Shown in pieces: positions 43,169-59,781 of a stretch of 64,000 bases of DNA. A program made the translations under genes and the position numbers. The stretch comes from Erythrobacter neustonensis (GTDB lineage: Bacteria > Pseudomonadota > Alphaproteobacteria > Sphingomonadales > Sphingomonadaceae). The first letter of the stretch is position 1; each line of letters begins with the position of its first letter. Below the pieces are notes generated by a model that had not been told where the DNA came from, searched no databases, and saw only the letters and a list, made by a program, of their open reading frames with translations. The stretch is taken from assembly GCF_001663175.1 (NCBI RefSeq), contig NZ_CP016033.1, positions 1,302,001 to 1,366,000 on the forward strand. Reading direction: 5' to 3'.

Positions 43169-43186
43169 ATTGGACTTTGGTTCTCG
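43169..43186 (-). promoter_or_regulatory. PQQ-island dyad motif upstream of the porin gene (site G)
   Basis: The minus strand reads CGAGAACCAAAGTCCAAT. It shares the CCAAAG core and the CAAT arm with the motif between the propeller and pedF genes (ACCAAAGT.CAAT). It ends 79 bp before the porin ATG. A second partial copy, with 14 bases identical to site F, adjoins it at 43183-43196. Confidence 0.5.
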
Positions 43187-43223
43187 TTCCTTGGTCTTAG
43201 ACGCGCTGCACGATGACGGCTGA

Positions 43224-44165
43224 TTACCCGTCAATCCGGGGGAGCAGCTGCGCCTCAAGCCGGGGGTAGAAATGTGAGACGGAACGGGTCAGCTCATATC
43301 GCGCCTGCGCTATCCCGGCAAAGCGTGCGGGTATCGGCAGGTTGGCAGCCTCGGCCATGTCGAGCCCGCCTGCGACCGCTTCGCGCAAGGCCTCATCCAG
43401 CCAGCGGAGCCAATCGCGGGTCTGGGAAATGGCGATGCCCCCCCGGTCGAGCGGGCCGTGGCCTGGGACGCATTGCCGGTGCGGCGTGGCGGCGAGGCGG
43501 TCCAATGCTGCGTACCAACTGGCCAGATCGGCATGAGGCGTGGCGGGCGCGCGGTTGTGGAAGACGAGATCGCCTGCGATCAGCGTGCCGCTCGCCTCAT
43601 CGAGGATCGCCAAGTCGCCCGCGCTGTGACCCGAAAGCGCCATGAGGCTGAGCCTGCGCCCGCCGAAGGAGACCGCGCCCTCGGCAGCGGCGGCCTGGGG
43701 CAGGATAACTTCGGTCCCCGCCATCCAGCCGTGCAGCATCCGGTACATGGCGTCCGAAAACCCCGCCCCGTCACGCTCCAGATCGGCGCGGGTGCCGGGC
43801 AGTGCGTGGATCTCGGCCCCGGCAAAGGCGCCATTGCCGAAGCTGTGATCGGGGTGGAGGTGGGTAATATAGACCCGCGCCGCCGCTCTGCCTGTCAGCC
43901 TTTGCGCCAGCATCGCCAGCGCCGTGCCGAAGCCGAGCGAGGGCCCGCTGTCGACCACGATGGCCCCCGCATCGCTCGCCATGATGACGCTGTTGGCAAT
44001 CGCGCCGCCATTGCGAAATTCCAGCGCCTCATCCGCGCCGGGCACCATCCAGATGCCGTCACCGATGGCTGTCGCCTCAGGCGCGTAGGTCCCGGCAAAG
44101 CCCTGCGCGCGGGCCATGACGGGAACCGCCAGCGCGCCCGCCAGAACCCCCCGCCGCGTGATCAT
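43224..44165 (-). CDS. Quinoprotein relay system zinc metallohydrolase (MBL fold)
   Basis: A 313-residue metallo-beta-lactamase-fold protein with an exported N terminus (MITRRGVLAGALAVPVMARAQG, Arg-pair signal). The metal-binding motif THLHPDH is at 101-107, followed by LSGHSAGDLAI and VPGHG as further ligands. It matches the SoxH-like family that accompanies PQQ dehydrogenase clusters. Its ATG overlaps the stop of the SoxYZ-like gene by 4 bp (ATGA), so the two are coupled. The much longer open frame upstream is out of frame with the real neighbour and is not coding. Its chemical role is unproven. Confidence 0.85.
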   Translation of the reverse strand: MITRRGVLAGALAVPVMARAQGFAGTYAPEATAIGDGIWMVPGADEALEFRNGGAIANSVIMASDAGAIVVDSGPSLGFGTALAMLAQRLTGRAAARVYITHLHPDHSFGNGAFAGAEIHALPGTRADLERDGAGFSDAMYRMLHGWMAGTEVILPQAAAAEGAVSFGGRRLSLMALSGHSAGDLAILDEASGTLIAGDLVFHNRAPATPHADLASWYAALDRLAATPHRQCVPGHGPLDRGGIAISQTRDWLRWLDEALREAVAGGLDMAEAANLPIPARFAGIAQARYELTRSVSHFYPRLEAQLLPRIDG

Positions 44166-44956
44166 CGCAGGGTCGCGGCGGCAATCCTCGGGCCGCTGGC
44201 GGCAGAAAGGCTGCCTGAAAATTCCATTCCGCCCGTATCGCGCGCTCGCACCGCCAGATCGCCGGAGGTCACGGGCGCAAGCATCAGCGTGAAGGCGGGG
44301 TCTTCGCTCACCGATCCATGCACCACCATCCGCGCCAGCAGCGCGCCTTGCGCATCGGCAATGGTGACCTGTTCGATGTTGTAGGCCGCGATATTCTCGA
44401 CCAGCCCTGTGTCCATCGGGTGGCGCAGGCTCAAGCGCACCCGCGCGCCGTCTGCCCCGTGCCACACCGCGCCGCGCAATTCTCCGAGGTGATCGGCCCA
44501 GTCCCCGCGCACGCGGCTCAGGGGCGGGGCCGAACACCCGCCGCCCGCCGCATCGACCCAGGCGCCCGCCACATGCCAAACGCCATCCGCCGTCAGCACC
44601 GCCGCGCGCACTGGGGTGCGCTGATCGAGCTTGATGCGGGTGGCCACAAAGGCGTGGGCGGCCAGCGGGGTATATTCGACCGCAATGGGAATGGGGTTCA
44701 AGTCGGCAAAGATCACGATCCGCGTGACCTTGCCCAGCGCGCGGGCATCGACGGTGACGGGCAGGACATGCTGGTTTTCGGCCAGCATTGGCAAGTCCAC
44801 CTTCACCTGCGGATCGAACATCACCGGCGCGCCGCCGAACAGCTTGCCTGCGTGATGCGCCCACATGGGCGATCCCAGCGGATCAGCAGGCGGCGCTTCG
44901 GCAAGCGCGGCAGCAGGGACGATGAGGGCCGCAAGGCTGAGGAGTTTGCGTATCAT
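44162..44956 (-). CDS. Quinoprotein dehydrogenase-associated SoxYZ-like carrier
   Basis: A 264-residue periplasmic protein: signal peptide (1-18), a SoxY-like domain (VDLPMLAENQHVLPVTVDARALG, ending in the carrier segment DAAGGGCSAPPLS with a lone Cys) and a SoxZ-like domain (RVRLSLRHPMDTG). In sulfur oxidation the equivalent Cys carries substrate; in PQQ clusters the family function is unknown. It is coupled to the metallohydrolase gene and transcribed divergently from the CXXCW gene. A copy of the island motif overlaps its start codon on the other strand. Confidence 0.87.
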   Translation of the reverse strand: MIRKLLSLAALIVPAAALAEAPPADPLGSPMWAHHAGKLFGGAPVMFDPQVKVDLPMLAENQHVLPVTVDARALGKVTRIVIFADLNPIPIAVEYTPLAAHAFVATRIKLDQRTPVRAAVLTADGVWHVAGAWVDAAGGGCSAPPLSRVRGDWADHLGELRGAVWHGADGARVRLSLRHPMDTGLVENIAAYNIEQVTIADAQGALLARMVVHGSVSEDPAFTLMLAPVTSGDLAVRARDTGGMEFSGSLSAASGPRIAAATLR

Positions 44957-44969
44957 ACCAAGGGACAAT
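44952..44969 (+). promoter_or_regulatory. PQQ-island dyad motif for the CXXCW gene (site E)
   Basis: ATCATACCAAGGGACAAT matches the best island motif at 13 of 18 positions. A GCATAT/CATATT hexamer follows after about 22 nt, and the CXXCW gene ATG is 56 bp downstream. The site overlaps the SoxYZ-like start codon, so a regulator here could also block that gene. Confidence 0.55.
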
Positions 44970-44995
44970 GTATTCCCGTGCCTGCACGTGTGCAT

Positions 44996-45013
44996 ATTGG
45001 ACCAAGGAACGAG
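44996..45013 (-). promoter_or_regulatory. PQQ-island dyad motif for the SoxYZ-like gene (site F)
   Basis: The minus strand reads CTCGTTCCTTGGTCCAAT and is followed after 21-22 nt by AATACAT, a possible -10. The SoxYZ-like ATG is 40 bp downstream. Fourteen bases are identical to a sequence upstream of the porin gene. Confidence 0.5.
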
Positions 45014-45024
45014 AAGGAGAGGGG

Positions 45025-45609
45025 ATGCGCGCTGCCCTGATATTGGTCGCTGCGGCGGCGCTGACCGGCATGGCGCCTGCGCCCGCGCCCAATGACCCCG
45101 CCCTGTTCGACGCCGAGGGTTACCGCAGCGCCCGCTACCGCGCGCCCGTCAAGGTCGATCCCGCGCCCGCCCAAACGATTCGGCTCGCCGCCGCGCTGGC
45201 ACTCGACCCTGAACGAGACGCGCTGTTCATCGATGTGACGCCGGCAGAAGGCGGGGTGCGCGATCCCGCAAGCGGGGTCTGGACGCTGGGGGCCGAGCAT
45301 CTCACCATTCCCGGCGCAGTGTGGCTGCCAGAGACGGGCCGCGCGCCGGTCGATGCCGATTTGTGGGCCGCGCTCGAAGCCCGCATCATCGCCGCGCGGG
45401 CCAAGGCACCGGGCACCACGGTGATCCTGTTCTGCCGCATTGATTGCTGGATGAGCTGGAACGCCGCCCGCCGCCTCGCCATGCGCGGCATGGCCAATAT
45501 CCGCTGGCTGGCCGAGGGCATCGATGGCTGGCATGGTGCAGGGCGCTCACTGGTGGCGGCAGTGCCCATCGCTGTCCCGGCTTCAACGATCATCGAGGAG
45601 ACAAACTGA
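45025..45609 (+). CDS. PQQ-dependent catabolism-associated CXXCW-type protein (rhodanese-like)
   Basis: A 194-residue exported protein: signal peptide (1-17), then a rhodanese-like fold with FIDVTPAEGG, TIPGAVWLPETG and the signature VILFCRIDCWMSWNAARR (Cys 137, Cys 141, Trp 142). There are three residues between the Cys in this protein. A strong GAAGGAGAGGGG ribosome-binding site precedes the ATG at 45025. It is known only from PQQ dehydrogenase clusters; a thiol-relay role with the SoxYZ-like carrier is an attractive inference. The EthD gene follows by 1 bp. Confidence 0.88.
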   Translation: MRAALILVAAAALTGMAPAPAPNDPALFDAEGYRSARYRAPVKVDPAPAQTIRLAAALALDPERDALFIDVTPAEGGVRDPASGVWTLGAEHLTIPGAVWLPETGRAPVDADLWAALEARIIAARAKAPGTTVILFCRIDCWMSWNAARRLAMRGMANIRWLAEGIDGWHGAGRSLVAAVPIAVPASTIIEETN

Positions 45610-45610
45610 C

Positions 45611-45904: not shown

Positions 45905-45965
45905 AGCGGGAGAGGCGCGGCGGCAGGTCAGACCCGCCGCCGCGCACCCCGTGCCTTTGCGACCC

Positions 45966-46361
45966 TTATTTCTGCTTCTTGAGATAGTTTATGATTTCCT
46001 GCCGCTTGGCCGCGTCCTTGATGCCGGGGAAGCTCATCCGGTTGCCCGGCACCAGCGCCTTGGGGTTTTCCAGCCACTTGTGGAGCGTTGCCTCGTTCCA
46101 CTTCAGGCCCGAACGCTTGAGCGCATCGGAAAAGGCGAACTTGCCCTGACCGGCAGCCGAGCCGAACACGCCATGGAGATTGGGACCGAGCTTGTCCTTA
46201 CCGCCCTTATCGGCAGTGTGGCACACGGCGCAGCGGGCATAGGCGGCAGGCGGCGCGCTGGCGCTGGCTTGGGCTCTCGCGGCTTGTTCGGGCGGCGAGC
46301 CTGCCGCGAAAGCCAAGGCTAGCACCAGTGTGCCGCCTACGGTGAGCTTTCGCACTATCAT
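45966..46361 (-). CDS. Class I c-type cytochrome
   Basis: A 131-residue periplasmic monohaem cytochrome: signal peptide about 1-30, haem motif CAVCH (Cys 44, Cys 47, His 48), mitochondrial-cytochrome-c-like KDKLGPNLHGVFG, and axial Met 109 in GNRMSFPG. ATG 46361 follows AGGGAGGA. It is a candidate electron carrier between the quinoprotein dehydrogenase and the oxidase. An island motif lies 66 bp upstream. It is downstream of the TonB receptor gene on the same strand. Confidence 0.92.
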   Translation of the reverse strand: MIVRKLTVGGTLVLALAFAAGSPPEQAARAQASASAPPAAYARCAVCHTADKGGKDKLGPNLHGVFGSAAGQGKFAFSDALKRSGLKWNEATLHKWLENPKALVPGNRMSFPGIKDAAKRQEIINYLKKQK

Positions 46362-46426: not shown

Positions 46427-46444
46427 ATTGCACCTTCGGACGAT
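46427..46444 (-). promoter_or_regulatory. PQQ-island dyad motif for the cytochrome c gene (site C)
   Basis: The minus strand reads ATCGTCCGAAGGTGCAAT. The conserved GTGCAAT arm is 66 bp before the cytochrome ATG, the same distance as at the aldehyde dehydrogenase gene. CATAGT follows after 22 nt as a possible -10. Confidence 0.6.
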
Positions 46445-46445: not shown

Positions 46446-48779
46446 TCAGAACCGCAGCCCGATCCCCACCGTGAACCGCCGCGGCGCGCCGGGGCCGAAG
46501 GCGCGCGGGTCGGAGGCGTTCGGGGCCTCTTCAAGCTCGACCTCGTCGACTTCGCTGAAGGTGCCGAAGGTCGCGAATTCGCGATTGAAGGCATTGCGCA
46601 CCTCGCCGAACAGCGAGACGCCCTCTACCACCTCCACCCGCCCGCGCAGGTTGAAGATGACATAGCCGGGCACCGCCGGGTTCTGGTTCGCCTCGTCGCC
46701 CACCAGCCGCTGGCTGGAGCGCGCGATCATGTCGCCGCCGATAGCGAAGACGCGGGCACCGATCCGGCCTTCGTAATCCGCGGTCAGCGCCGCGCTGTGG
46801 CGCGGGATGCCTGTCAGGCGGTCGCCCGCTGCGACGTCGATCTCGCCTTCATCATTCGCCTCGGGGTTGGCCGGACTGCTGAGCGTGGCGGGCAGGCGAA
46901 AGGTCGCGTCGATGAAGGCATAGCTTGCCCCGAGCCGGAAGCCCCCGCGCTGTGCGCTCACGCTGGCTTCGAAGCCCTGCCGCCGGGTGCGCCCGATATT
47001 CTCGAAGAACCCGCGCCCGCGGATGCTCGATGCGACGAACTGGATGTCGTTCACGTTGGTCGCCCGGTAGGCCGAGGCGAGCCAGTCGAATGCCCATCCA
47101 CCGCTGCGATGGCGTCCCGATGCACCCAGTTCGAACGTTTTGGCGACCACCTGTTCGAGCGGCGGGTCGGCGACGAAGAAGTTGGCGAGGCTGCAAGGCG
47201 CGTTCTCGTCCGCGCAGGAGAGCTCGGCCTCGGTCGGTACGCGGTTCGATTCGGCATAGCCGGCGCGCAAGGACACCTCGGGCGTGACCGCCCAGTCGAA
47301 CTCGACCCCCGGATTGAGGCGGCTAAAGCTGTGATCGCCGTTCAGCGCGGTGCCGATCTGGTCTTCGAGCACGATTCGCGCATGGTTCCAGCGCAGCCCG
47401 ATCTCTGCGGTCAGGGTGTCGGTCAGCGGCAAGGTGTCGCTGGCGAACACGCCCCAGAAACGCGAGCGGGTCTTGAGCGCCACCGGGGCGATGGCGTTGT
47501 CGGGCTGGTCGATGAAGAAGCCCAGCCCCTCGACGCTGCGGTCTTCGGTGAGCGCGCCGAGTTCAGTCGAAGCGGCAAAATCGTTCTCGCTTGAGTCGTA
47601 ACTTACCCCGAAGGCAAGGCGGTTGCGGCGCGAACCCATATCCTGTTCGGTGATCATCTGGGCGAGGAAGCCCTCCGAGCGCGAACGGATCGTGCCGCGG
47701 TTGAAGACGCCGTAATCGCCGCCGTCCAGCACGTCGCCCAACGGATCGCCATTGGCTGCGATCAGCAGCGCCTGCTCCTCGTCCCCGTCATCGCCGACGC
47801 TTTCGAGGCACAGCAGGTCTTCCAGCGCCGGATCGTCCTCGCACTCCTCGATATCGGCGGCATCGCCGTTGAGCAGCGCGGCCTTGCGGCGCTGGCGGTA
47901 GAGCGTCGCCTCGAAACGCACGCCGTCGGTGATCGCCAGCCAGGGGTGGAGGCTGATGCGACCATATTTGTTGCGCTGGTTGTCGGGCCAAGTGAACACC
48001 GATTGCCGCCGCGCCGCCAGCAGCTCGACCGGAGCGACACCGTTGCCGGTAAGGTCGGTGTCGGCGCCGATGAACTTGACATGCACTCCGCCGCGTTCCC
48101 CATCATAACCGAGATCGCCAAAGCCGTTGACAAGGTCTGATGGGCTGAAATCGCGCCAGCCTTCCTCCTCGCGATATTGCACCGCGCCGAACCAGCTGAG
48201 CCCGCCGCTTGCCCCGCCCGCTGAAAGCGCAAGGTCGCGTTCGCCATAGGATCCGATTGCGGTCGTTGCCTCGACGCCTTGTTCGGTCCGGCCCGTTGCG
48301 GTCTCGATCACCAGTGCGCCGCCCAGCGTGTTTAGGCCATAAACCGGGCTCGCATCGCGCAAGGTGGCGCTGCGGATCGCGGCATCGGGGATCAGTTCGA
48401 AATTGACTGTATCGCCGAAAGGCTGGTTGAAGCGCGCACCGTCGACATAGGCGGCTATGCCCTGCGCCTGCCCTGCCAGCGGCGAGGCGACATAGCCGCG
48501 ATAGACGAGGTTGGGCTGCCAGGGGTTGTTCTGCGCGTCCTGCAAGGTGACGCCCGCGAAATTGCGGGTCAGCGCGGCAAGCAGGTCAGGCGCGCCTGCG
48601 ATGCTGATGTCGCGCTTTTCAAGGGTCAGGGCATCGTCGAGGTCGATGTCGCCGCCCGGCGCGGTGACGATGATGGCTTCGCGCAGATCATCGCCCGGCG
48701 CCGCCGCATTTTCCGCCTGCACCGCCACAGGTGCGGCCAGCGCCGCCCCTGCGAGCAGCAGGCCCTTCCGTCGCCGCAT
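46446..48779 (-). CDS. TonB-dependent receptor of the PQQ island, with an acidic extracellular loop
   Basis: A 777-residue receptor: signal peptide (about 1-22), plug domain from AIIVTAPGGDIDLDD through LVYRGYVASPLAGQAQGIAAYVDGARFNQPFGD, and a barrel ending PRRFTVGIGLRF. Residues about 305-336 form a loop with 15 Asp/Glu in 32 positions and two Cys (IEECEDDPALEDLLC, then VGDDGDEEQ). A second acidic patch lies near the C terminus (FSEVDEVELEEAP). It lies between the propeller and cytochrome c genes in one direction. Ligand is unknown; a metal or lanthanide chelate, or PQQ, would fit the context. Confidence 0.87.
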   Translation of the reverse strand: MRRRKGLLLAGAALAAPVAVQAENAAAPGDDLREAIIVTAPGGDIDLDDALTLEKRDISIAGAPDLLAALTRNFAGVTLQDAQNNPWQPNLVYRGYVASPLAGQAQGIAAYVDGARFNQPFGDTVNFELIPDAAIRSATLRDASPVYGLNTLGGALVIETATGRTEQGVEATTAIGSYGERDLALSAGGASGGLSWFGAVQYREEEGWRDFSPSDLVNGFGDLGYDGERGGVHVKFIGADTDLTGNGVAPVELLAARRQSVFTWPDNQRNKYGRISLHPWLAITDGVRFEATLYRQRRKAALLNGDAADIEECEDDPALEDLLCLESVGDDGDEEQALLIAANGDPLGDVLDGGDYGVFNRGTIRSRSEGFLAQMITEQDMGSRRNRLAFGVSYDSSENDFAASTELGALTEDRSVEGLGFFIDQPDNAIAPVALKTRSRFWGVFASDTLPLTDTLTAEIGLRWNHARIVLEDQIGTALNGDHSFSRLNPGVEFDWAVTPEVSLRAGYAESNRVPTEAELSCADENAPCSLANFFVADPPLEQVVAKTFELGASGRHRSGGWAFDWLASAYRATNVNDIQFVASSIRGRGFFENIGRTRRQGFEASVSAQRGGFRLGASYAFIDATFRLPATLSSPANPEANDEGEIDVAAGDRLTGIPRHSAALTADYEGRIGARVFAIGGDMIARSSQRLVGDEANQNPAVPGYVIFNLRGRVEVVEGVSLFGEVRNAFNREFATFGTFSEVDEVELEEAPNASDPRAFGPGAPRRFTVGIGLRF

Positions 48780-48830
48780 TGAACCCCTCCTGCCGAAGCC
48801 GCTTGCTGCGGCCCTCGCTTGTTGCATGTG

Positions 48831-49799
48831 CTATTCCGCCAGCACGACCCCCCACGGGCCTGCGCCTGCGGGGATCCTTGCAGTGACCTTGCCCGTTGCC
48901 AGATCGACCACTGCGACATCATCGCTCGTGCCATTGGCGACCACGGCGCGGCTCCCGTCGTCGGTGATGGCAAGGTGCCAGGGGCGCCCGCCGGTGGTGA
49001 CATAGCCCGTCACTTGCCCGCTCTCCACATCGACCAGCGCGATGGCATCCGCCCGTCCGAGGGCGATCACGGCGGTCTTGCCATCGGGCGTAAAGCGGAT
49101 GCCGCAGGGCAGCACCTTGTAACCCATCGCGCCCGGCGGAGCGAAGGCGATGGTCCGGGTGATTTCGCGAGACGCCACATCGACCACGTGGACGGTCTGG
49201 CCGATTTCGGCCGCGATCCATACCTGGCGTCCATCGGGCGTAAATTCGATATGCCGGGGCCGCGGGTCGGTTTCCATCTCGACGATGGTCTGGCGGGTGG
49301 CAAGGTCGATCCAGCTGACCGAGTTGTCTTCTTCGCTCGCGACCAGCAGCCACTTGCCATCGGGGCTGACGGCAATGCCTTCGGGCTCCTCGCCCACTTC
49401 GACCTGCCAGGCGACCTTGCGTGCTTCAAGGTCGATGGCGGTGGCGGCGGCATCATCCTCGTTCGATACGAACAGGAAGCGGCCATCGGGGGAGAGGAAG
49501 AATTGTTCAGGATCATTGCCCGCCGGCATCACCGCGACCAGCGCGCCGGTCTGGGCGTCGCGCACCTCTACCGCATTATCGATGCTGGCGCAGATGTAGA
49601 GGTGCTTGCCGTCCTTGCTCAGCAGGATCCCGCGCGGGCGCTGGCCGACGGCGAAGGTATCCACCACCGCGCCGCTGGCAAGGTCGATCACGCTTACGGT
49701 ATTGCCGCGTTCATTGCTGACATAGGCCGTCTGCGCGGCGGCCGGGGCGGCCAGCCAAAGGGCTGATAACGTAGCGGCCAGGGTGGGACGACATCTCAT
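48831..49799 (-). CDS. PQQ-dependent catabolism-associated beta-propeller protein
   Basis: A 322-residue exported protein: signal peptide (1-22, PAAAQ), then about seven repeats of the YVTN type (AYVSNERGNTVSVIDLASG, LYICASIDNAVEVRDAQTG, LFVSNEDDAAATAIDLEAR, and so on) forming a beta-propeller. The family occurs only with PQQ dehydrogenases and its role is unsettled. The ATG at 49799 gives the signal peptide; another ATG is 9 bp upstream. It is divergent from pedF. Confidence 0.9.
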   Translation of the reverse strand: MRCRPTLAATLSALWLAAPAAAQTAYVSNERGNTVSVIDLASGAVVDTFAVGQRPRGILLSKDGKHLYICASIDNAVEVRDAQTGALVAVMPAGNDPEQFFLSPDGRFLFVSNEDDAAATAIDLEARKVAWQVEVGEEPEGIAVSPDGKWLLVASEEDNSVSWIDLATRQTIVEMETDPRPRHIEFTPDGRQVWIAAEIGQTVHVVDVASREITRTIAFAPPGAMGYKVLPCGIRFTPDGKTAVIALGRADAIALVDVESGQVTGYVTTGGRPWHLAITDDGSRAVVANGTSDDVAVVDLATGKVTARIPAGAGPWGVVLAE

Positions 49800-49833: not shown

Positions 49834-49851
49834 ATTGTACCAAAGTGCAAT
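49834..49851. promoter_or_regulatory. Best copy of the PQQ-island dyad motif (site A, propeller/pedF)
   Basis: ATTGTACCAAAGTGCAAT is an inverted repeat (ATTGtAC N4 GTgCAAT). On the plus strand TAATTT follows after exactly 21 nt, toward pedF. On the minus strand TAGGAT follows after exactly 21 nt, toward the propeller gene. One symmetric site could thus serve both promoters. Confidence 0.7.
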
Positions 49852-49943: not shown

Positions 49944-50381
49944 ATGAACACCACCACCACCGCACGCATCATGCTGGGCGCTGCCATTGCCGCGCTGGCG
50001 ATGACCGCCGCGCCGCAGATCATGGCGCATGGCGATGTGACCCCGCAGGCGGTTGATACCTCCAGCCTGCCCGACATCGGCGAGGCCTGGCTGGAAAAGA
50101 ACCCCTACAGCGGCAATGCCCGGGCAATTGAGATCGGCACGTCTGCCTACAACCAGAACTGTGCGCGCTGCCACGGGCTCGAAGCCATTTCCGGGGGCAT
50201 CGCGCCTGACCTGCGCTATCTCGAACTCGGCGAAACCGGCGACCAGTGGTATATGGAGCGTTTCCGCAACGGGTCGAGCCATGACGGCAAGGTCTATATG
50301 CCGGCTTTCGGCGAAGTGCTGGGGCAGAAGGCGGGCTGGGCGATCCGCGCCTTCCTCGAAACCAAGTACACGGAAGAATAA
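49944..50381 (+). CDS. pedF: Cytochrome c-550 PedF
   Basis: A 145-residue periplasmic monohaem cytochrome: signal peptide (1-28, ending IMAHG), haem motif CARCH (Cys 73, Cys 76, His 77), YLELGETGDQWYMERFRNGS and the axial-Met region DGKVYMPAFGE. It matches the PedF/ExaB type that takes electrons from PQQ ethanol dehydrogenase. The substrate-binding-protein gene begins 1 bp after its stop. Confidence 0.92.
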   Translation: MNTTTTARIMLGAAIAALAMTAAPQIMAHGDVTPQAVDTSSLPDIGEAWLEKNPYSGNARAIEIGTSAYNQNCARCHGLEAISGGIAPDLRYLELGETGDQWYMERFRNGSSHDGKVYMPAFGEVLGQKAGWAIRAFLETKYTEE

Positions 50382-50382: not shown

Positions 50383-51255
50383 GTGGCCGGCACGCGCAGG
50401 GGGTTCCTCGCCGGTGTTGCCGGTGCGGGCGCGGCTTTGGCATTGGGCGGCCCGCTGGGGGCCGCGCCGCTGGCGAAGGTAAGGGAGCTGGGCCTGCTCA
50501 GGGTCGGGCTTTATGCCGACAACCGCCCTTGGTCGTGGGACAAGGGTGGCGGCGTGCCGGCAGGGATTGACGTCGATCTGGCGATGGCCATTGCCGACCA
50601 GCTGGGCGTGAAGCACGAAATCGCCCTGTTCACCGCTGACGAAGACCTGTCCGATGACCTGCGCAACGTTGTCTGGCGCGGCGGGCTGTTGGGGTTCCGG
50701 CGCTGCGATCTGATGCTGCACGTGCCCTTCGACATGCAATTGTCCTCGCGCGAGGATCAGGTGGTGTTCGTGGCCCCCTATTACCGCGAGGAATTCACCG
50801 CCGTCTGCTCTGCCCAAACGCGCGATTGCAACATGCCGCCGCAGCGCTTTGTCGGCAGCAAGGTGGGGGCGGAGCTTGATTCGATCCCCGATTTCTACCT
50901 GATGGGCAGCTTTGGCGGGGTGCTGCGCGGGGATGTTGAGCACTATCCCACCGGCCACGCCGCCGCACTCGCAGTGCATGATGGCGAGATCGAAATGGCG
51001 GTCGCCACCCGCGCGCAGATCGAGGCGGCCACAGCTGATCGCAGCGGCAGCGCGGCCAAGCATCGCACCAGCCCCCTGCCGCTGATGCCCTCATCCGGCT
51101 GGGACATCGGCATGGCCGTGCGCGAGGACAGCCGCACACTGGGTTTTGCGGTCGAGGATATCGTCACGAACATGGCCGGCGATGGCCGCATGGCCGCGCT
51201 GTTCGCCCGCCACGGCGTCACTTGGCAGGCGGCGGCTGCGACCAAGGTGCTCTGA
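50383..51255 (+). CDS. Quinoprotein dehydrogenase-associated periplasmic binding protein
   Basis: A 290-residue protein with a twin-arginine-like leader (TRRGFLAGVAGAGAALALGG) and a type II periplasmic-binding fold (LRVGLYADNRPWSWDKGGGVPAGIDVDLAMAIADQLG, then RRCDLMLHVPFD). It belongs to the family of ABC-type solute-binding proteins found only in PQQ clusters (MxaJ/XoxJ relatives), thought to help dehydrogenase maturation or activation rather than transport. No permease is present. The start is a GTG at 50383. Confidence 0.88.
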   Translation: MAGTRRGFLAGVAGAGAALALGGPLGAAPLAKVRELGLLRVGLYADNRPWSWDKGGGVPAGIDVDLAMAIADQLGVKHEIALFTADEDLSDDLRNVVWRGGLLGFRRCDLMLHVPFDMQLSSREDQVVFVAPYYREEFTAVCSAQTRDCNMPPQRFVGSKVGAELDSIPDFYLMGSFGGVLRGDVEHYPTGHAAALAVHDGEIEMAVATRAQIEAATADRSGSAAKHRTSPLPLMPSSGWDIGMAVREDSRTLGFAVEDIVTNMAGDGRMAALFARHGVTWQAAAATKVL

Positions 51256-51265: not shown

Positions 51266-51283
51266 CTAGTTCCAAGGTGCAAT
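51266..51283 (+). promoter_or_regulatory. PQQ-island dyad motif for the quinoprotein dehydrogenase (site B)
   Basis: CTAGTTCCAAGGTGCAAT carries the conserved CCAAG core and GTGCAAT arm. TAGGTT follows after exactly 21 nt. The dehydrogenase ATG is 104 bp downstream. Confidence 0.6.
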
Positions 51284-51386: not shown

Positions 51387-53135
51387 ATGATGAAGGGCAT
51401 GCAAAACATTCTGGCCGCAGGCGCTGCGCTTGTTGCTGTTGCGCTGACGGCGCCCGCTCTGGCCGAGGACGGGCCGAGCATGGACCAGCTGATGAACGAC
51501 GCCGCCACCACCGGCGATGTGCTCACCTACGGCATCGGGCCGCAGCAGCAGCGCTTCAGCCCGCTGGCTGCAATCAATACCGAAAACGTCGCGCGGATGG
51601 TGCCCGCCTTTGCTGCATCGCTTGGCGGCGAAAAGCAGCGCGGGCAGGAATCGCAGCCGATCGTCTATGACGGGGTGATCTATGTCACCGGATCATACTC
51701 GCGCCTGTTCGCCTTCGATGCGCGCAATGGCGAGAAGCTGTGGGAATATAACCACCGCTTGCCCGATGGCATCATGCCCTGCTGCGATGTGGTCAACCGG
51801 GGGGCGGCGATCCATGGCGACAAGGTGATCTTCGCCACGCTCGATGCGCGGCTCGTCGCCTTGAACCGCAAGACTGGCAAGGTGATCTGGAACAAAATGA
51901 CCGCCGACTACAAGGCGGGCTATTCTGCCACGGCAGCGCCGATCATCGTCAAGAATCTCGTCATCACCGGCAATTCGGGCGGCGAATTTGGCGCGGTGGG
52001 CGAAGTGCAGGCGCGCAATGTCGACACGGGCGAGCTGGTCTGGACCCGGCCCGTGATCGAGGGCCACATGGGCACCTTGAACGGCAAGGACAACGGCCTC
52101 ACCGGCAAGATCAATGCCACCTGGCAGGGCGACATGTGGAAGACCGGTGGCGGGGCGACCTGGCTGGGCGGCACCTATGATCCTGACACCAACCTCGTCT
52201 TCTTCGGCACCGGCAACCCGGCCCCGTGGAACAGCCACCTGCGCCCCGGCGACAACCTCTACACCGCTTCGACCGTGGCGATCGACCCCGATACGGGCGT
52301 GATCAAGTGGCACTATCAGACCACGCCCAATGATGGCTGGGACTTTGACGGGGTCAATGAATTTATCCCCTTCGACGGCACCTTCGGCGGCAAGAAGATG
52401 AAGCTGGGCGCCAAGGCGGATCGCAACGGGTATTTCTATGTGCTCGACCGCACCAACGGGAGGCTTTTGAACGCCACGCCCTTCGTGATGCAGCCCAACT
52501 GGGCGAGCAAGATCGACCTCAAGACCGGGAGGCCCGTCTATAATGCCGAAAACCGCCCCGGCGCGCCGGGCACGGCGGAAAAGGGCAAGCCGGTATTTGC
52601 CACGCCGAGCTTCCTCGGCGGCAAGAACTGGATGCCGATGGCCTATTCGCCCGACACCGAGATGTTCTACGTCCCTTCCAACGACTGGGGCATGGACATC
52701 TGGAACGAACCCATCGCCTACAAGAAGGGCGCGGCCTATCTGGGCGCGGGCTTCACCATCAAGCCGATTGCCGAGGATCACATCGGCGCGCTGCGCGCGG
52801 TTGACCCCAAGACCGGCAAGATCATGTGGGAATACAAGAACAAGGCCCCGCTGTGGGGCGGCGTGCTGACGACCCGCGGCAATCTGGTCTTCACGGGCAC
52901 GCCCGAAGGTTACCTCAAGGCCTTCGACGCCAAGACCGGCAAGGAGCTGTGGAAGTTCCAGACCGGGTCAGGCGTGGTCGGATCGCCCGTCACCTGGGAA
53001 CAGGACGGCGAGCAATATGTCGCGGTCATGTCCGGCTGGGGCGGTGCGGTGCCGCTGTGGGGCGGGGAGGTTGCCAAGACCTTCAAGGAGATCAGTCAGG
53101 GCGGGTCGCTCTGGGTGTTCAAGCTGCCCAAGTAA
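51387..53135 (+). CDS. PQQ-dependent alcohol dehydrogenase, predicted lanthanide type
   Basis: A 582-residue periplasmic quinoprotein (signal peptide about 1-25) with an eight-bladed propeller. The adjacent Cys pair (Cys 132-133 in [10 protein letters not shown]) that caps PQQ is present. The catalytic Asp 319 lies in [12 protein letters not shown] and is followed by Asp 321. In characterised enzymes this second Asp marks lanthanide-dependent types (XoxF, PedH), while calcium enzymes have Ala or Ser there. There is no C-terminal haem domain, so electrons must go to a separate cytochrome (PedF). ATG 51387 (or 51390) follows GAGGAGGG. The gene ends in a strong terminator. Confidence 0.93.
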
Positions 53136-53211: not shown

Positions 53212-53865
53212 ATGACCGACGCACCGCCGCTTGAAAGCGTTCTCATCGTCGATGATCACGGGTTGATCCGCGATGGCCTGCGCGCGATCCTGTCGTCTGC
53301 CTTTCCCGCCTGCGCCATTGCCGAAGCGGGCAGTTTTGCCGAGGCGCTGGGCCAGCTTGAAGCCGGGCCCGATCCCGATCTGGTCTTGCTCGATCTCAAT
53401 ATTCCCGATGCATCCCGGTTTTCCGCGCTCGAACAGCTGCGCGCCGATTTTCCGAGCCTGCCGGTGGTGATGGTCTCGGGCTCCTATGACCGCGTCACCG
53501 TGCGCGATGCGCTGGCCGCGGGCGCGGCGGGGTTCCTGCCCAAGACCTTGGACCGCGCGACGATCCTCGATGCAATTCAGCAGGTGATGCTTGGCGAAAT
53601 CTATGTCCCCGGCGAACTGCAAAGCGATCCGGCCGCCGATGAAGAGGACGAGAAGATCCGCAAGCTGATCGACAGCCTCACTCCGCAGCAGCGCGTGGTG
53701 CTGGGCCATGTCGTGGCCGGGCGGCTCAACAAGCAGATCGCGCATGAACTTGATATCTCGATGACGACCGTGAAGGCGCATGTTTCGGCAATCCTGTGCA
53801 AATTGAACGTGTTCAGCCGCACACAGGCGGTGATCCTTGCCAACCGGATTGGCTTTGACGGCTGA
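53212..53865 (+). CDS. LuxR/NarL-family response regulator (AgmR/ExaE-like)
   Basis: A 217-residue two-domain regulator. The receiver domain has the phospho-Asp in LVLLDLNIPD (about residue 61) with acidic pair DDH near the N terminus. The C-terminal LuxR HTH reads LTPQQRVVLGHVVAGRLNKQIAHELDISMTTVKAHVSAIL. By context it matches AgmR/ErbR/PedR1, which activate PQQ ethanol oxidation in pseudomonads. It is the best candidate to bind the island motif. It converges on the hybrid kinase gene with no gap. Confidence 0.88.
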   Translation: MTDAPPLESVLIVDDHGLIRDGLRAILSSAFPACAIAEAGSFAEALGQLEAGPDPDLVLLDLNIPDASRFSALEQLRADFPSLPVVMVSGSYDRVTVRDALAAGAAGFLPKTLDRATILDAIQQVMLGEIYVPGELQSDPAADEEDEKIRKLIDSLTPQQRVVLGHVVAGRLNKQIAHELDISMTTVKAHVSAILCKLNVFSRTQAVILANRIGFDG

Positions 53866-56064
53866 TTAGCTCGCCGCCGCAATCCGGCGCAGCAGCGCGC
53901 GCAGCTGAGCAGGTTTCACCGGCTTGGTCAGCACCGGCAGCCCTGCCGCAGCAAGCTGGCCCCGCACATCCTCGCTGCGGTCGGCGGTGATGATCGCGGC
54001 AGGCAGATCGCCGCCGTGCAGCGCCCGCACTCGCGCCACCGCCTGATCGCCGGTGAGATCATCGGCGAGGTGATAATCGGCCAGGATCAGCGATAGCCCT
54101 GCGGCGGCCGCAGCGCGCACATCGGGGTGATCTGGCCCGACGGCGGTGATGGCGGCATGGCCCCAGTTTTCCAGCAGGGCGCGCATTCCGGCAAGGATCG
54201 TCTCGTCATTGTCGATCACGAGGATCGCCCCGCCGCCTTGCGCAGGCTTGCTCCGGCGCGGCCCGGGCGGGGCGGTGGCAGCCTCGCGCGCTTCGGCGAT
54301 GGGCAGTGTGATCGCAAAGGTCGATCCGCGGCCCGGCACCGATTCCAGCGTCACGCCGTGCCCAAGCTTTGCACAGCTGCGCCGCACGATCGCAAGGCCG
54401 AGGCCGTGGCCGGGGATATTGCGGGTCGCATCGAGCCTGCGGAACTCCTCGAAGACCACGCGCTGTTCATGCGCGGCGATGCCGGGGCCGGTGTCGGTCA
54501 CGGCGACCGTCACCCGCCCGCCATCGGCCTGCGCGGTCACGGTGACGCTGCCTTCGGCGGTGTAGCGGATCGCGTTGGAGACAAGGTTTTGCAGCACCCG
54601 TCTGAGCATCTGCACATCGCTGGACACGAACAGGCCGGTTTCGGGCACGGCAAAGGCCAGCCCGCGTGACCTGGCCAGCGGCGCAAATTCCACCTTCAGC
54701 GCCGACAGGATCCGGTCGAGCGATATGGCGCGCACCTCAGGCTGGATGGCGCCGGCATCGAGCCGCGAAATCTCGAACAGGCTTTCGAGCATGTCCTCGA
54801 CCGAATCGAGCGCGATCCCCGCCTGTCCCACCAGCCCGCGGGTACTGGCCGCCAGCCGCTTTTCATGGAGCGCCGAGACAAACAGCCGCGCCGCATTGAG
54901 CGGTTGCAGCAGATCGTGGCTGGCTGCGGCAAGGAAGCGGGTCTTGGACTGGTTGGCCTGCTCGGCCTCGTCCTTGGCATCGGCGAGCTGGCGGTTGACC
55001 TCGACCAGTTCGGCGGTGCGTTCGCGCACGGCGCGTTCGAGCGTTTCGGCGACCTCGGTCATGCTCTTCTGGAAGCGGATGCGATCGGTCACGTCGTCGA
55101 AGGCAAAGGCCATGCCGCCGGTCGCCAGCGTGACCGAGCGGATCACGAAATTGCGGCTGCCCAGCATGCAATCGGTCGAGATGCGCGGGCCCCGGCCCTC
55201 GCGCCATTCGACCGCCTGCGGCCGGTCGAGCTGGCATTGTTCAACGCAATGCGCGACGAAATCCGCATGCGTGCCGACATGGGCGGCAATATCGCGGCCC
55301 ACGCGCAGCATGTTGGCAAATTCGTCGTTCCAGGCCTGCAATTGCTGGTTCGGCCCGAACAGGCAGGCGCCTTCGGACAGGGTATCGAGCGTCGATTGCA
55401 GGGCAAGGTTGCGTTCGGCGAGTTCGCGCGCGCGCTGGCGGGCGTCCTCGGCCTTGACGCTGGTGATGTCGGTGTAGATGCCGACCGTCCCGCCTTCCGA
55501 CGTGCGCAGCTCGTTGATCTGGAGCCAGCGCCCGTCGGCCAGCAGTTGCACATGCGCGCCGGCATCATTGTGGCGGGCGAGGCGTTCCTGTTTCCAGCGT
55601 TCGGGCGAAACCAGCGATCCCAGCGTGCTGCCGTGTCGGGCCAGCAGATCGACCAGTTCGACAAAGGTCGGCTGCCGGGCGACGATGTCGCGAAATTCGG
55701 GCCAGATATCGAGGAAGGCGGTGTTGCACATCACCAGCCGGTCTTCGGCGTTGAACAGGGCAAACCCGTCCGACAGCGATTCAATCGCATCGCGCAGCCG
55801 CGCGCGGGCGGCGTCGGCATCATGGTGCGCGGCTTCGATCTGGGCGTTGATCGTGGCGAGCTTGCCCATCGCTTCTTCAAGCTCGGCGGTGCGCGCGCGG
55901 ACCATGGCTTCGAGCGTGAGCGCGTTTTCGAACATCGAAAAGGCCCCGGCGTGAAGGTCGCTTGACCGTTCCACCCGGTCCATCAGCGCGGCGTTGATCG
56001 CTTCGAGTTTGCGGACCTGCTCTTTCAGCCGCGCGACTTCGTCCGCTGCGATGGCGGTCGCCAT
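53866..56064 (-). CDS. Hybrid sensor histidine kinase with PAS modules (ErcS'/NahK-like)
   Basis: A 732-residue soluble hybrid kinase: N-terminal coiled coil (about 5-95), two PAS modules (about 95-205 and 215-330), HisKA with the phospho-acceptor in LAAASHDLLQPLNAARLF, HATPase_c with N box (NAIRYTAEG), DTGPGI and GLGLAIV, and a C-terminal receiver with acceptor Asp in LILADYHL. The HDLLQPLNAA style is that of NahK/ErcS' kinases near ethanol-oxidation genes in Pseudomonas. There is no membrane segment. Its ATG overlaps the FIST gene stop, so both are one operon. Confidence 0.9.
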   Translation of the reverse strand: MATAIAADEVARLKEQVRKLEAINAALMDRVERSSDLHAGAFSMFENALTLEAMVRARTAELEEAMGKLATINAQIEAAHHDADAARARLRDAIESLSDGFALFNAEDRLVMCNTAFLDIWPEFRDIVARQPTFVELVDLLARHGSTLGSLVSPERWKQERLARHNDAGAHVQLLADGRWLQINELRTSEGGTVGIYTDITSVKAEDARQRARELAERNLALQSTLDTLSEGACLFGPNQQLQAWNDEFANMLRVGRDIAAHVGTHADFVAHCVEQCQLDRPQAVEWREGRGPRISTDCMLGSRNFVIRSVTLATGGMAFAFDDVTDRIRFQKSMTEVAETLERAVRERTAELVEVNRQLADAKDEAEQANQSKTRFLAAASHDLLQPLNAARLFVSALHEKRLAASTRGLVGQAGIALDSVEDMLESLFEISRLDAGAIQPEVRAISLDRILSALKVEFAPLARSRGLAFAVPETGLFVSSDVQMLRRVLQNLVSNAIRYTAEGSVTVTAQADGGRVTVAVTDTGPGIAAHEQRVVFEEFRRLDATRNIPGHGLGLAIVRRSCAKLGHGVTLESVPGRGSTFAITLPIAEAREAATAPPGPRRSKPAQGGGAILVIDNDETILAGMRALLENWGHAAITAVGPDHPDVRAAAAAGLSLILADYHLADDLTGDQAVARVRALHGGDLPAAIITADRSEDVRGQLAAAGLPVLTKPVKPAQLRALLRRIAAAS

Positions 56065-57257
56065 CAGCGGCCGATCATCAGACAGCTGAAGGTCTGGTTG
56101 AGGTGCGCGGCGCGAAACTGTTCGCCATAGGTGTTGAAGCCCGTCACGCGGTTGGCGGCGTAGAGGTCGGACACGGTGCGGGTGATCTGGCGGGTTTCGG
56201 CATCGATGCGGTTGAGCACGCAGTCAAAACCGAGCATGTGATCGACCTCGCCCATCTCGGCCCGCACCCGGTCAAAGAAAGCCCGCATCCGCGCCAGCCG
56301 GTCCACGGGCTCGCCCACCGACAGCACGATCCCCCTATCGACCGCGCCATAGAAGGTGAGGCTGCCGTCGGGGTTGGCGGTCTGCACCGCGCGGACATGA
56401 TAAGTGCCGCCAGCGCGCACCATCGGCGGGTGAGCGGCGAAAAAGGCGGTGTCAAGCGTCGCCTCCGGCACGCCAGCCAGGCGGCGGTATTCGTCAGCGG
56501 CGGGCGCGGCGTTGATTTCGTGGACGATGCGCTGTTCCGGATCAGCAGCGGTCACGACCATGCGGACGGGGCCGGGTTCATAGAAGCATTCCGAATAGAC
56601 CTGCATCGGCTGCGCGCTGGTGAGCAGCACGATGGCCGCCGTGCCCGATCGGAACGCGCCGTCGCACAGCACGCCGGTTTCGCTGAACAGGAGATCATCG
56701 CCGCTCGACCCGCCGATCAGCGGAATATCGCCGAGTGCGTCCTGCACCGTCATGGTCAGCAATTCCTCGCGGTGCGAGAGGCCATCGACAAGGAACAGCG
56801 CGACCTGGCTCGCATCCGGGCCGAGGAAACGCGCTTCGTGGCGGGCATTGGCGGCAAGATGGCGCACCTGCGCCTGCGCGTCCTCGCGGTCGAAACCGTC
56901 GATGTCGGTGACGTGCAGCACCCGGAAGGTAAAGCTGCCCTCGGGAAAGCCCATGAAGACGAGGCTGTCGGCGTCATAACCGCGCCCGGTGATTTCGCCG
57001 GCGCTGGTGCACCCGGCAAGCGGGATGTGGCCCAGATGCTCCCCGATGGCAGCGGCCAGCGCTTCGCGCGGGTAGGTGCTGGAACAGAAGATCACGCCGC
57101 CGGCCAGCGCCCGCCCGTCGATCGCGCGGGCAATGTCCGCCACAGCCTCAACCGGACAGGCGGCATGCGAACTTGCCACGACAAGACCGCCTGCCGCCGA
57201 AGGGCGCGGTGCGTGCACAGGTCTCTCCCAAGTTTCCCACGAAGGCCGAGCCTTCAT
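56064..57257 (-). CDS. FIST-domain sensory protein
   Basis: A 397-residue soluble protein with FIST N (about 20-215; GVIFCSSTYPREAL, GCTSAGEITGRGYD, IGGSSGDDL) and FIST C (about 220-385; YSECFYEPGPVRMVVTAADPEQRIVHEINAAPAADEYRRL and FNTYGEQF near the end). FIST proteins are thought to sense small ligands and pass the signal to a kinase. It overlaps the hybrid kinase gene by one base and is the likely input partner. ATG 57257 is preferred over an upstream start. Confidence 0.88.
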   Translation of the reverse strand: MKARPSWETWERPVHAPRPSAAGGLVVASSHAACPVEAVADIARAIDGRALAGGVIFCSSTYPREALAAAIGEHLGHIPLAGCTSAGEITGRGYDADSLVFMGFPEGSFTFRVLHVTDIDGFDREDAQAQVRHLAANARHEARFLGPDASQVALFLVDGLSHREELLTMTVQDALGDIPLIGGSSGDDLLFSETGVLCDGAFRSGTAAIVLLTSAQPMQVYSECFYEPGPVRMVVTAADPEQRIVHEINAAPAADEYRRLAGVPEATLDTAFFAAHPPMVRAGGTYHVRAVQTANPDGSLTFYGAVDRGIVLSVGEPVDRLARMRAFFDRVRAEMGEVDHMLGFDCVLNRIDAETRQITRTVSDLYAANRVTGFNTYGEQFRAAHLNQTFSCLMIGR

Positions 57258-57301
57258 CCCTAACCCATATTGTTGGAGATTCCCCGGCCCGGCAAGCACT
57301 T

Positions 57302-57706: not shown

Positions 57707-57738
57707 GGAGGTTCTCTCCGGCAAGCAAGCGACAAAGC

Positions 57739-57821
57739 GGGGCGGAGGGCCATGTCAGGCCGTCCGCCCCGTGGGACACCGGAACCGCTTCGGTGGGAGA
57801 GAGAGCGGGAGGCGGTTCCGG
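57739..57821 (-). other. Two hairpins between aldehyde dehydrogenase and DUF779 genes
   Basis: One stem pairs GGGGCGGA (57739-57746) with TCCGCCCC (57763-57770). A second is a perfect 10-bp repeat CCGGAACCGC (57779-57788) / GCGGTTCCGG (57812-57821). Neither has a U tract in the direction of transcription; they may tune the ratio of the two products. Confidence 0.55.
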
Positions 57822-57830
57822 CCAATCGGC

Positions 57831-59351
57831 TCAGAAGAAGCCCAGCGCCTTGGGGCTGTAGCTGACGAGCAGATTCTTGGTCTGCTGGTAGTGCTCCAGC
57901 ATCATCCGGTGGTTCTCGCGCCCGATGCCGGACTGCTTATAGCCGCCGAACGCCGCGTGGGCGGGGTAGGCATGGTAGCAGTTGGTCCAGACCCGGCCCG
58001 CCTCGATCGCGCGGCCGAAGCGGTAGCAGGTGTTGGCATCGCGGCTCCACACCCCGGCGCCAAGGCCGTAGAGGGTGTCATTGGCGATGCTGAGGGCTTC
58101 CGCGTCATCCTTGAAGGTGGTCACCGACAGCACGGGGCCGAAGATTTCCTCTTGAAAGATGCGCATCTTGTTGTGGCCTTCCAGAACGGTCGGCTTGACG
58201 TAATAGCCTTCGGACAGCTCGCCTTCGTGGATGTGGCGGCTGCCGCCGGTCAGCACCTTTGCGCCTTCGCCCTTGCCGATCTCGATATAGCTGAGGATCT
58301 TTTCCAGCTGATCGTTCGAAGCCTGCGCGCCGATCATGGTGTCGAAATCGAGCGGGCTGCCCAGCTTGATCGCGTTCACCCGGGCAATCGCCTTTTCCAT
58401 GAAGCGGTCATAGATCGATTCGTGGATCAGCGCGCGGCTTGGGCAGGTGCAGACCTCGCCCTGATTGAGCGCGAACATGGCGAAGCCTTCGAGCGCCTTG
58501 TCGAGGTAATCGTCATCCTCGCGCATCACGTCGGCAAAGAAGATGTTGGGGCTCTTGCCGCCCAGTTCGAGGGTGCAGGGGATGAGGTTTTCGCTCGCAT
58601 ATTGCATGATCAGCCGCCCGGTGGTGGTCTCCCCGGTAAACGCGATCTTGGCGATCCGCGGGCTGGTGGCGAGCGGCTTGCCCGCTTCGATGCCGAAGCC
58701 GTTGACGACGTTGACGACACCTTCGGGCAGCAAATCGCCGATCACCTCCATGAGTGCCATGATGCTCATGGGGGTCTGTTCGGCAGGCTTCAGCACCACG
58801 CAATTGCCGGCGGCGAGTGCCGGGGCAAGCTTCCACACCGCCATCAGTAGCGGGAAGTTCCAGGGAATGATCTGCCCGACCACGCCCAGCGGCTCGTGAA
58901 AGTGGTAGGCGATGGTGTCGTGATCGATCTCGGAAATGCCACCTTCCTGCGCGCGCAGGCACCCGGCGAAATAGCGGAAGTGATCAACGGCGAGCGGCAG
59001 GTCGGCAGCGGTGGTTTCGCGGATCGGCTTGCCGTTGTCGATTGTTTCGACCAGCGCCAGCATATCGAGATTGTCCTCAATGCGCTGGGCGATGCGGTTG
59101 AGGATGTTGCTGCGCTCGGTGGTCGAGGTGCGGCCCCAGGCGCCCTTCGCCTTGTGCGCGGCATCGAGTGCAAGCTCGATATCCTCGGCGCTGCCACGCG
59201 CCACCTGACACACCCGCTTGCCGTTCACGGGCGAGATATTGTCGAAATACTGACCCTTGACCGGCGCGGTCCAGCGGCCGCCGATGAAGTTGTCATACTT
59301 GGCCTTGATCAGGGTTTTGCCTTCGAATTTACTAAGGGCCTGTTCAAGCAT
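57831..59351 (-). CDS. NAD-dependent aldehyde dehydrogenase (ExaC/acetaldehyde type)
   Basis: A 506-residue ALDH. Landmarks: [50 protein letters not shown] with the catalytic Glu, and [17 protein letters not shown] with the nucleophilic Cys. It would oxidise the aldehyde made by the quinoprotein dehydrogenase to the acid in the cytoplasm. ATG 59351 gives the standard N terminus ([12 protein letters not shown]). An island motif lies 66 bp upstream. It leads the operon ALDH - DUF779 - FIST - hybrid kinase. Confidence 0.94.
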
Positions 59352-59781
59352 CGTGCTTCTCCTCTCGCCAAGCGGCCGTTGAAGCCCGAATTTGCGCCAG
59401 TCGGCTCGCAAAACCTATTGTACCTTAGGCCGAGATAGATGCTGGCTGCGGTGGCCTGGCTAACCTCATCCTGAACGGCCAGAGCCCAGTTGGTGGTGAC
59501 ATACCCGCCATTGACCGCACGGACGCACTCGGTGCCGGATTATGCAAATCTCATGGTCTGCCGGGCGCTTTGGATGCCAACAAATTCGCTGGCCGAGCGA
59601 ACCTATGCCTTCTTGGCGCGCTCCCGTTTTCGGGAAGTCGCGCTCTGCTGTCAGGCGTCTGGTGTGGGGTCGATACCCGAAGGTCCGCTGTTTTCCAGAA
59701 TGCCGCCAATCAGCCATTCCCCGCCCGCGCCCGCCGGAGGCATCGCTCCGGAACGGGCGTGGAGTGGGGGGCTGCGTCGCT
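59352..59781. other. Gene-free stretch with the aldehyde dehydrogenase promoter
   Basis: A 430-bp region between the aldehyde dehydrogenase start and the msrA stop. Apart from the island motif at 59417-59434 and a small CCGGAG/CTCCGG hairpin at 59734-59751, nothing was recognised. Short frames on both strands have no domain character. Confidence 0.5.
59417..59434 (-). promoter_or_regulatory. PQQ-island dyad motif for the aldehyde dehydrogenase (site D)
   Basis: The minus strand reads CTCGGCCTAAGGTACAAT, with the GTACAAT arm and AAG core of the shared motif. It ends 66 bp before the ATG, matching the cytochrome c gene. CAAATT follows after 22 nt. Confidence 0.55.

Follow-up and report, generated by a model that had tools for sequence, protein, structure and literature searches.

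A conserved 18-mer at the alcohol-oxidation promoters of Erythrobacter neustonensis and its putative LuxR-type regulator

Here, we describe a short DNA element that recurs at the promoters of a gene island for pyrroloquinoline quinone (PQQ)-dependent alcohol oxidation in Erythrobacter neustonensis. The island lies within a 64,000-nucleotide stretch of contig NZ_CP016033.1 (positions 1,302,001 to 1,366,000; hereafter, the window). This short signal over the alcohol-oxidation promoters is real and is conserved in many related bacteria. We consider it likely that the 18-mer serves as operator for a class-II-type activator of a periplasmic alcohol-oxidation regulon and that the protein binding it is the LuxR/NarL-family response regulator encoded beside exaA, the gene for a PQQ-dependent alcohol dehydrogenase. 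The operator is new and well supported; the regulon is of an already known kind.

A sequence-only reading of the window had placed variants of the 18-mer at seven positions. The exact letters are present at all of them, in eight orientations, and each is 5' of a plausible gene start:

43169..43186, (-) strand: operator site CGAGAACCAAAGTCCAAT of the porin-like gene, whose ATG at 43090 is 78 nt away
44952..44969, (+) strand: operator site ATCATACCAAGGGACAAT upstream of the CXXCW gene
44996..45013, (-) strand: operator site CTCGTTCCTTGGTCCAAT upstream of the SoxYZ-like gene
46427..46444, (-) strand: operator site ATCGTCCGAAGGTGCAAT of the cytochrome c gene, 65 nt from the ATG
49834..49851, both strands: palindromic operator site ATTGTACCAAAGTGCAAT, common to the divergent pedF and beta-propeller genes
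51266..51283, (+) strand: operator site CTAGTTCCAAGGTGCAAT of the exaA-type PQQ alcohol dehydrogenase gene, followed by TG and, 21 nt after, by TAGGTT
59417..59434, (-) strand: operator site CTCGGCCTAAGGTACAAT of the exaC aldehyde dehydrogenase gene, 65 nt from the ATG

Conservation and specificity of the motif

The proposal that the island promoters share one operator is strongly supported by the orthologous promoters, by the orientation of the sites and by their near-fixed distance to a −10 element. Orthologous promoters were scanned with a matrix built from the seven window sites only, over 250 nt upstream and 30 nt of each gene and with a threshold of 10 bits, in 89 related loci (80 named loci and nine stretches from eight further family genomes). 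Because these loci are interrelated, the counts are not independent, and three genomes enter the set twice (as L044/L066, L045/L101, and L048/L113). Upstream stretches were excluded if the tblastn query start exceeded 60, if they were shorter than 150 nt or if they contained N; the rows kept were exaA 88/89, porin 63/70, soxYZ 37/41, cxxcw 30/31, cycA 25/29, tonbP 24/28, kinase 60/71, fist 59/61, exaC 54/55, mbl 20/40, and tonb2 0/42. In these loci, the motif is kept before eight gene classes, namely, exaA (75 of 88 orthologs), pedF (77/83), the propeller gene (68/78), the porin gene (59/63), exaC (47/54), the CXXCW gene (24/30), the SoxYZ-like gene (25/37), and the cytochrome c gene (17/25); a site also precedes 9 of the 24 orthologs of the propeller-linked TonB receptor gene. 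The motif is nearly absent before regulatory or operon-internal genes (luxR, 1/83; kinase, 0/60; FIST, 4/59; substrate-binding protein, 0/82; DUF779, 1/50; and metallohydrolase, 0/20). With 40 column-shuffled matrices, the mean counts were 0.1 to 4.4 per gene class, with a maximum of 20 (pedF).

The motif is also recovered when the window is left out. A de novo motif, TNGNCCCAAGGTCCAATT, was derived from 56 exaA-ortholog upstream stretches with no window seed; this set excluded the window, the named Erythrobacter loci (L050 to L052), Azospirillum, L047, L112, L115, all loci from L117 up, and near-identical upstream stretches. In the window, this motif has eight matches above 2 bits, of which seven are the reported sites, ranked 1 to 6 and 8. 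The two weakest of these are at 44995 (6.9 bits) and 44953 (3.5 bits), and ranked between them is the single false match, at 54686 (5.2 bits) inside the kinase gene. A matrix from 206 distinct sites of relatives gives window matches of at least 14 bits only at the seven sites and at 41037–41054; its sites were chosen with the window-derived matrix as the seed, making it partly circular. In 40 simulated first-order Markov windows, there were on average 0.5 matches of at least 14 bits and at most 2, compared with eight places in the real window, of which the one at 41037–41054 is only a candidate. The best simulated match scored 22.8 bits, which falls in the range of the real sites (21.3 to 28.2 bits), and score alone therefore proves no single site.

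The same picture emerges from the genome (3.09 Mb, one contig), in which the sequence-only reading had proposed a scan as a check. The pattern CNAARGKNCAAT, itself derived from the window sites, has 15 exact matches, of which 6 are in a 16-kb stretch, the island, while the reversed-pattern control has none; CCAANGNNCAAT has 12 matches, with 4 in the island and 3 for the control. Outside the island, the two patterns match 15 distinct places (9 from CNAARGKNCAAT and 8 from CCAANGNNCAAT, two being common to both); nine of these places fall within a predicted frame or at the start of one, and the other six do not (L003, L005, L008, L133, L135, and L136). One outside sequence, CGAAGGTGCAAT, recurs in many genomes and is coding in E. 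neustonensis (L130), presumably in purH. The genome's second PQQ dehydrogenase region (L137) had no site scoring more than 7.2 bits. CNAAGGTNCAAT has 99 matches across 24 whole genomes against 16 for its reversed control, counted genome-wide inside and outside islands. That the sites arose by chance, or from a repeat spread by copying, is hardly credible: copying would fit the longer stretch GACCAAGGAACGAGAA that the sites at 43169 and 44996 have in common, but the motif is kept across genera in orthologous promoters with diverged flanks, which already contradicts this explanation, and de novo discovery without the window recovers it.

Site anatomy and promoter geometry

The consensus from the relatives approximates [AC]TnGn[AC]C CAA[GA] GTnCAAT, frequently followed by TG. 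Among the 206 distinct sites, C7, A9, A10, G12, T13, C15, A16, A17, and T18 are strong, while T2, G4, C8, and G/A11 are weaker. The right arm had been read as pointing to the gene that it precedes and does so in the relatives, in which 220 of 254 sites at one-sided promoters are oriented toward the gene. The −10-like hexamers noted 21 to 22 nt after CAAT in the window are present as read; the cytochrome c and exaC sites are indeed equally far from their ATGs, although at 65 nt rather than at the 66 claimed. Downstream of 152 distinct sites, positions +1/+2 favor T/TG, and a TAnnnT-like signal occurs in two registers at +22 to +28. T18 together with a following T-G would start a −35 element, which would give a spacer of 16 to 17 nt. 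Because the −10-like signal lies at a near-fixed distance, the site appears to cover the −35 region, and this geometry is consistent with the class II activator mode suggested earlier.

The label "18-bp dyad" overstates the symmetry of the motif. Among the seven sites, only the one at 49834, shared by two divergent genes, forms a good palindrome; the others have a weak left arm. Dyad symmetry is stronger in divergent gaps than at one-sided sites (on average 4.02 versus 3.41 of 7 arm pairs, p=3e-5, computed on rows that are not independent), as expected of a dimer site that serves both sides.

The near-fixed distance to a −10-like element and the orientation toward the gene would also suit a −35 element of an alternative (ECF-type) sigma factor, and RpoE6 affects exaA and pqqA in A. 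brasilense (PMC12826043). At the pedF/propeller gap, however, a single near-palindromic site serves both divergent genes, and TTG follows CAA at only 1 of the 8 window site orientations (51266), which fits activator-dependent promoters. Moreover, 18 bp is long for a conserved −35 element, and the −10 element looks sigma-70-like. We therefore regard the sigma-factor explanation as very improbable and favor an activator site.

Two observations concern individual promoters. The CXXCW and SoxYZ-like promoters (44952–45013) overlap face to face, with each operator near the −10 element of the other. In addition, GACCAAGGAACGAGAA is an identical 16-mer at 43181–43196 (-) and 45000–45015 (+), overlapping two operators.

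The candidate regulator and its relatives

The island comprises the following genes:

41660..43090, (-) strand: porin-like outer-membrane protein, named from island context, N-terminus, and Pseudomonas gene order (no family match over cutoff)
43224..44090 (start approximate), (-) strand: quinoprotein relay system zinc metallohydrolase 1 (TIGR04558 over cutoff)
44162..44956, (-) strand: quinoprotein dehydrogenase-associated SoxYZ-like carrier (TIGR04557 over cutoff)
45025..45609, (+) strand: PQQ-dependent catabolism-associated CXXCW motif protein (TIGR03865 over cutoff)
45966..46361, (-) strand: cytochrome c
46446..48827, (-) strand: TonB-dependent receptor, following the propeller gene after 3 nt in an apparent operon
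48831..49799, (-) strand: PQQ-dependent catabolism-associated beta-propeller protein (TIGR03866 over cutoff)
49944..50381, (+) strand: cytochrome c-550 PedF (TIGR04494 over cutoff)
50383..51255 (start approximate), (+) strand: periplasmic substrate-binding protein, without an operator of its own
51387..53135, (+) strand: PQQ-dependent alcohol dehydrogenase, ExaA type (TIGR03075 over cutoff), with the active-site stretch WDFD, which we take to be the signature of the lanthanide-dependent (PedH/ExaF) type
53212..53865, (+) strand: LuxR/NarL-family response regulator, AgmR/ErbR-like by neighborhood and the proposed operator binder
53866..56064, (-) strand: hybrid histidine kinase, NahK/ErcS-like (NF041831 and NF041832 matches below cutoff)
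56064..57299, (-) strand: FIST-domain protein, NosP-like (NF041558, 377 bits; cutoff, 450)
57831..59351, (-) strand: acetaldehyde dehydrogenase ExaC (NF050026 over cutoff)

The 18-mer is probably the landing site of the AgmR/ErbR/EraR-like LuxR regulator encoded in the island. According to our model, a dimer of this LuxR/NarL-type response regulator, phosphorylated directly or by relay from the adjacent NahK/ErcS-like hybrid kinase, would bind the 18-mer over the −35 region and recruit sigma-70 RNA polymerase to a weak promoter in class II fashion. It would thereby switch on exaA, pedF, exaC, the cytochrome c gene, the SoxYZ/CXXCW helper genes, and the porin gene; likewise, the propeller gene and the TonB receptor gene behind it would belong to the regulon, with the single palindromic site at the pedF/propeller gap serving both directions. 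In this model, we infer the identity of the binding protein, its phosphorylation, and activation rather than repression.

The sequence-only reading had named the island's LuxR regulator and hybrid kinase as the obvious candidates, and for the LuxR regulator there is indirect support. In most motif-bearing loci, a LuxR gene lies ∼1.8 kb from exaA. Regulator and motif were compared in the 79 of 89 loci with enough contig (10 were skipped): both are present in 68, neither in five (four of Solimonas and Hydrocarboniphaga and one paralog locus), the motif only in one, and the regulator with a weaker variant (<12 bits) in five, all from Azospirillum.

Several observations weigh against this model. 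L118 has the motif and no regulator within the 20 kb examined, and a Phaeobacter locus (L195) has a 17-bit site and no response regulator annotated within ∼4 kb of exaA. In L115 and L117, the recognition helix is ETTVKAHV, as in Azospirillum, yet the motif is that of sphingomonads; changes in the recognition helix thus do not track changes in the motif. Not every ortholog has a site, with 12 of 37 soxYZ orthologs below 10 bits. One-sided sites are no more self-complementary (3.41 arm pairs) than halves shuffled between sites (3.50), and the left arm may accordingly be a weak half-site or none. Finally, among the six plasmid records examined for sites upstream of exaA, none was found in Methylorubrum, Aquabacterium, and Azospirillum lipoferum; the other Methylorubrum genes tested had no site either.

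L118 and L195 would fit an operator that belonged to a different DNA-binding protein of the genome, with the island LuxR regulator acting elsewhere or in a cascade. Several LuxR-type regulators do take part in the ethanol network of Pseudomonas (PMC12997753 and PMC9927353). Nevertheless, the regulator gene adjoins exaA in most motif-bearing loci, five of the six testable loci without the regulator also lack the motif, and the regulator and kinase genes are almost never preceded by the box. With 167 bits against the ErdR model NF041830 (cutoff, 390), the island regulator is also not ErdR by score. Altogether, we consider a different binding protein unlikely and prefer the regulator beside exaA.

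The box reaches beyond the sphingomonads. In the other three of the six plasmid records, a site in the same register precedes exaA (Shinella, TTACGACCAAGGTCCAAT; Sulfitobacter, CTACTACCATTGTGCAAT; and Phaeobacter, CTACGACCATTGTGCAAT); in A. lipoferum, a site lies before pedF and before a substrate-binding gene. An Aestuariibacter locus has CCAAGGTTTAAT upstream of exaA. In six loci of A. brasilense and its kin, ATTCGACTATTTGCCAAT-like dyads lie in the same register 188 to 224 bp before the exaA start. The exaA sites of Azospirillum score 7.3 to 13.2 bits with the window matrix (six loci) and 8.9 to 10.0 bits with a refined matrix (five loci). The sequence-only reading did not recognize the motif from described systems, which may be only partly right: the LuxR-type regulator EraR of A. 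brasilense Sp7 reportedly recognizes a 17-bp dyad that precedes exaA (Singh et al. 2017), and this dyad is probably related to the sphingomonad operator. EraR reportedly acts with sigma-54 on a −12/−24 promoter, whereas a sigma-70-like −35 element underlies the sphingomonad sites.

In more distant genomes, a palindrome-constrained search found no sensible motif in ten far relatives, and in 26 far loci it found a different dyad, similar to GGTATTGCTACCAAGG. Such dyads are present at eleven exaA promoters in genomes from other classes of the phylum:

L145, L146, L150, L153 to L155, L157, L159 to L161, and L163: exaA promoters with a GGTATTGCTACCAAGG-like dyad

They lie ∼20 bp before a conserved nAATTGTTG/CAAGAAT promoter stretch, of which nAATTGTTG is found in most, and are perhaps the box of another LuxR regulator.

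The island resembles the AgmR/PedR1/ErbR regulon of Pseudomonas in its PQQ dehydrogenase, PedF, propeller, SoxYZ/rhodanese/metallohydrolase helpers, and porin, as well as in the location of a LuxR regulator gene beside those for a NahK/PedS1-like hybrid kinase and a NosP-like protein (PMC12997753). The island kinase and NosP-like protein score below the curated cutoffs, and their orthology rests on neighborhood. At the level of sequence alone, the box is common to the genes for the PQQ alcohol dehydrogenase, cytochrome c550 PedF, and ExaC, both in the island and in relatives. In Acinetobacter, ethanol metabolism is likewise under a LuxR-type response regulator, EmaR, for which a box was derived with MEME; this box, xCTTATxxxxAT(A)xAT, is unrelated in sequence to the 18-mer, and EmaR is ErdR-like (PMC9603970). 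No printed operator sequence for an AgmR/EraR-type regulator was found in literature listings of at most 20 entries each or in the accessible parts of PMC12997753, PMC5487730, PMC6115532, PMC9927353, PMC8041468, PMC9603970, PMC12826043, and PMC11837500, with most subscription papers and all supplements outside this search. AgmR/ErbR-type regulators have long been studied by genetics; the conserved box allows their regulon to be predicted in many genera from the sequence and can be used directly in footprint, mutation, and reporter tests.

PQQ supply and the TonB receptors

In Pseudomonas putida, the pqq operon is activated by AgmR, as are the ped genes (PMC12997753). The E. neustonensis genome differs from the Pseudomonas AgmR regulon, in which the pqq operon is a target (PMC12997753), in that it has no PqqC match. 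PqqE is also not found over the cutoff in this genome, and there is therefore no pqq biosynthesis operon to control. PqqC had no match in 29 of the 33 genome entries searched, E. neustonensis included and two genomes counted twice, and none in 146 of 149 family genomes, although 87 of the 149 have a PQQ-dehydrogenase match. Because PqqC was not found, PQQ is probably obtained from outside. The box also shows that the dehydrogenase is wired together with helper genes whose role is uncertain (propeller, SoxYZ-like, CXXCW, porin, and TonB receptor), in organisms apparently unable to make PQQ. In Sphingomonas formosensis (L048), the gap upstream of exaC contains a 14.5-bit site that is oriented toward pqqC, 1.9 kb ahead of this gene; no site of at least 11 bits was found in the examined pqqC flanks of L168 (the same genome as L048), L170, and L171. 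These data are suggestive of the pqq operon as a target, in one genome only.

The TonB receptor at 46446–48827 is a candidate importer of PQQ or of a lanthanide complex, with lanthanide uptake as one option. Its only matches among solved structures are to YncD/PqqU, which are weak (∼57 bits), and it scores 92.8 bits against the PqqU model (cutoff, 1200). Of the PQQ-binding residues of Escherichia coli PqqU, Y99 (or F/W) is opposite an Ala in a weak alignment, while R304 and R365 fall outside the aligned stretches. Relatives of the receptor are found in 30 of 32 genomes, its own included (11 at ≥55% identity, 11 at 40 to 48%, and 8 at 35 to 38%). The case for the operator at these other copies is weak: an upstream site of at least 14 bits is present at 5 of 20, compared with 37 of 400 pieces drawn at random from related loci, true sites included. 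In a post hoc split, sites are present at 5 of 8 copies with ≥55% identity and at 0 of 12 with ≤48%, where two of the five sites point away from the gene and one of the eight stretches is only 171 nt long. We tentatively propose, with considerable doubt, that the PQQ-alcohol regulon is defined by one operator type, present in sphingomonads, Shinella, Roseobacteraceae, Azospirillum, and some loci of other classes, and that in sphingomonads, mostly without visible PQQ synthesis, it controls a TonB importer of PQQ or a lanthanide-PQQ form. If so, the regulon would couple alcohol oxidation to scavenging of the PQQ cofactor.

The match at 41037–41054 precedes a second TonB receptor gene (38945 to about 40980):

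41037..41054, (-) strand: candidate eighth site TTCCTACTTAAGGACAAT, 15.5 bits

Among the 34 orthologs of this receptor that were examined, 12 carry a site of at least 10 bits on the same strand, and 8 of these 12 sites reach at least 14 bits. A separate listing of receptor rows covered the best 60 of 70. Ten of the 12 are GACCnAAGGnnCnAT sites in Sphingobium-type loci; their distance to the aligned start is 154 to 189 nt, compared with 176 nt in the window, and GTC follows them as it does there. Speaking against an eighth site, it lies in the last codons of the cytochrome b561 gene (41016–41609), for which the PF01292 match reaches residue 196 of 197, and the closest receptor orthologs (∼60% identity) lack it.

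Away from the known targets, a conserved ATAGGACCAAAGnnCnAT site, which may mark a regulon member not yet assigned, is present in seven loci, from named Sphingobium and one metagenome-assembled genome, at L065 18649, L068 1025, L069 18654, L071 18658, L076 20269, L078 20270, and L090 20281.

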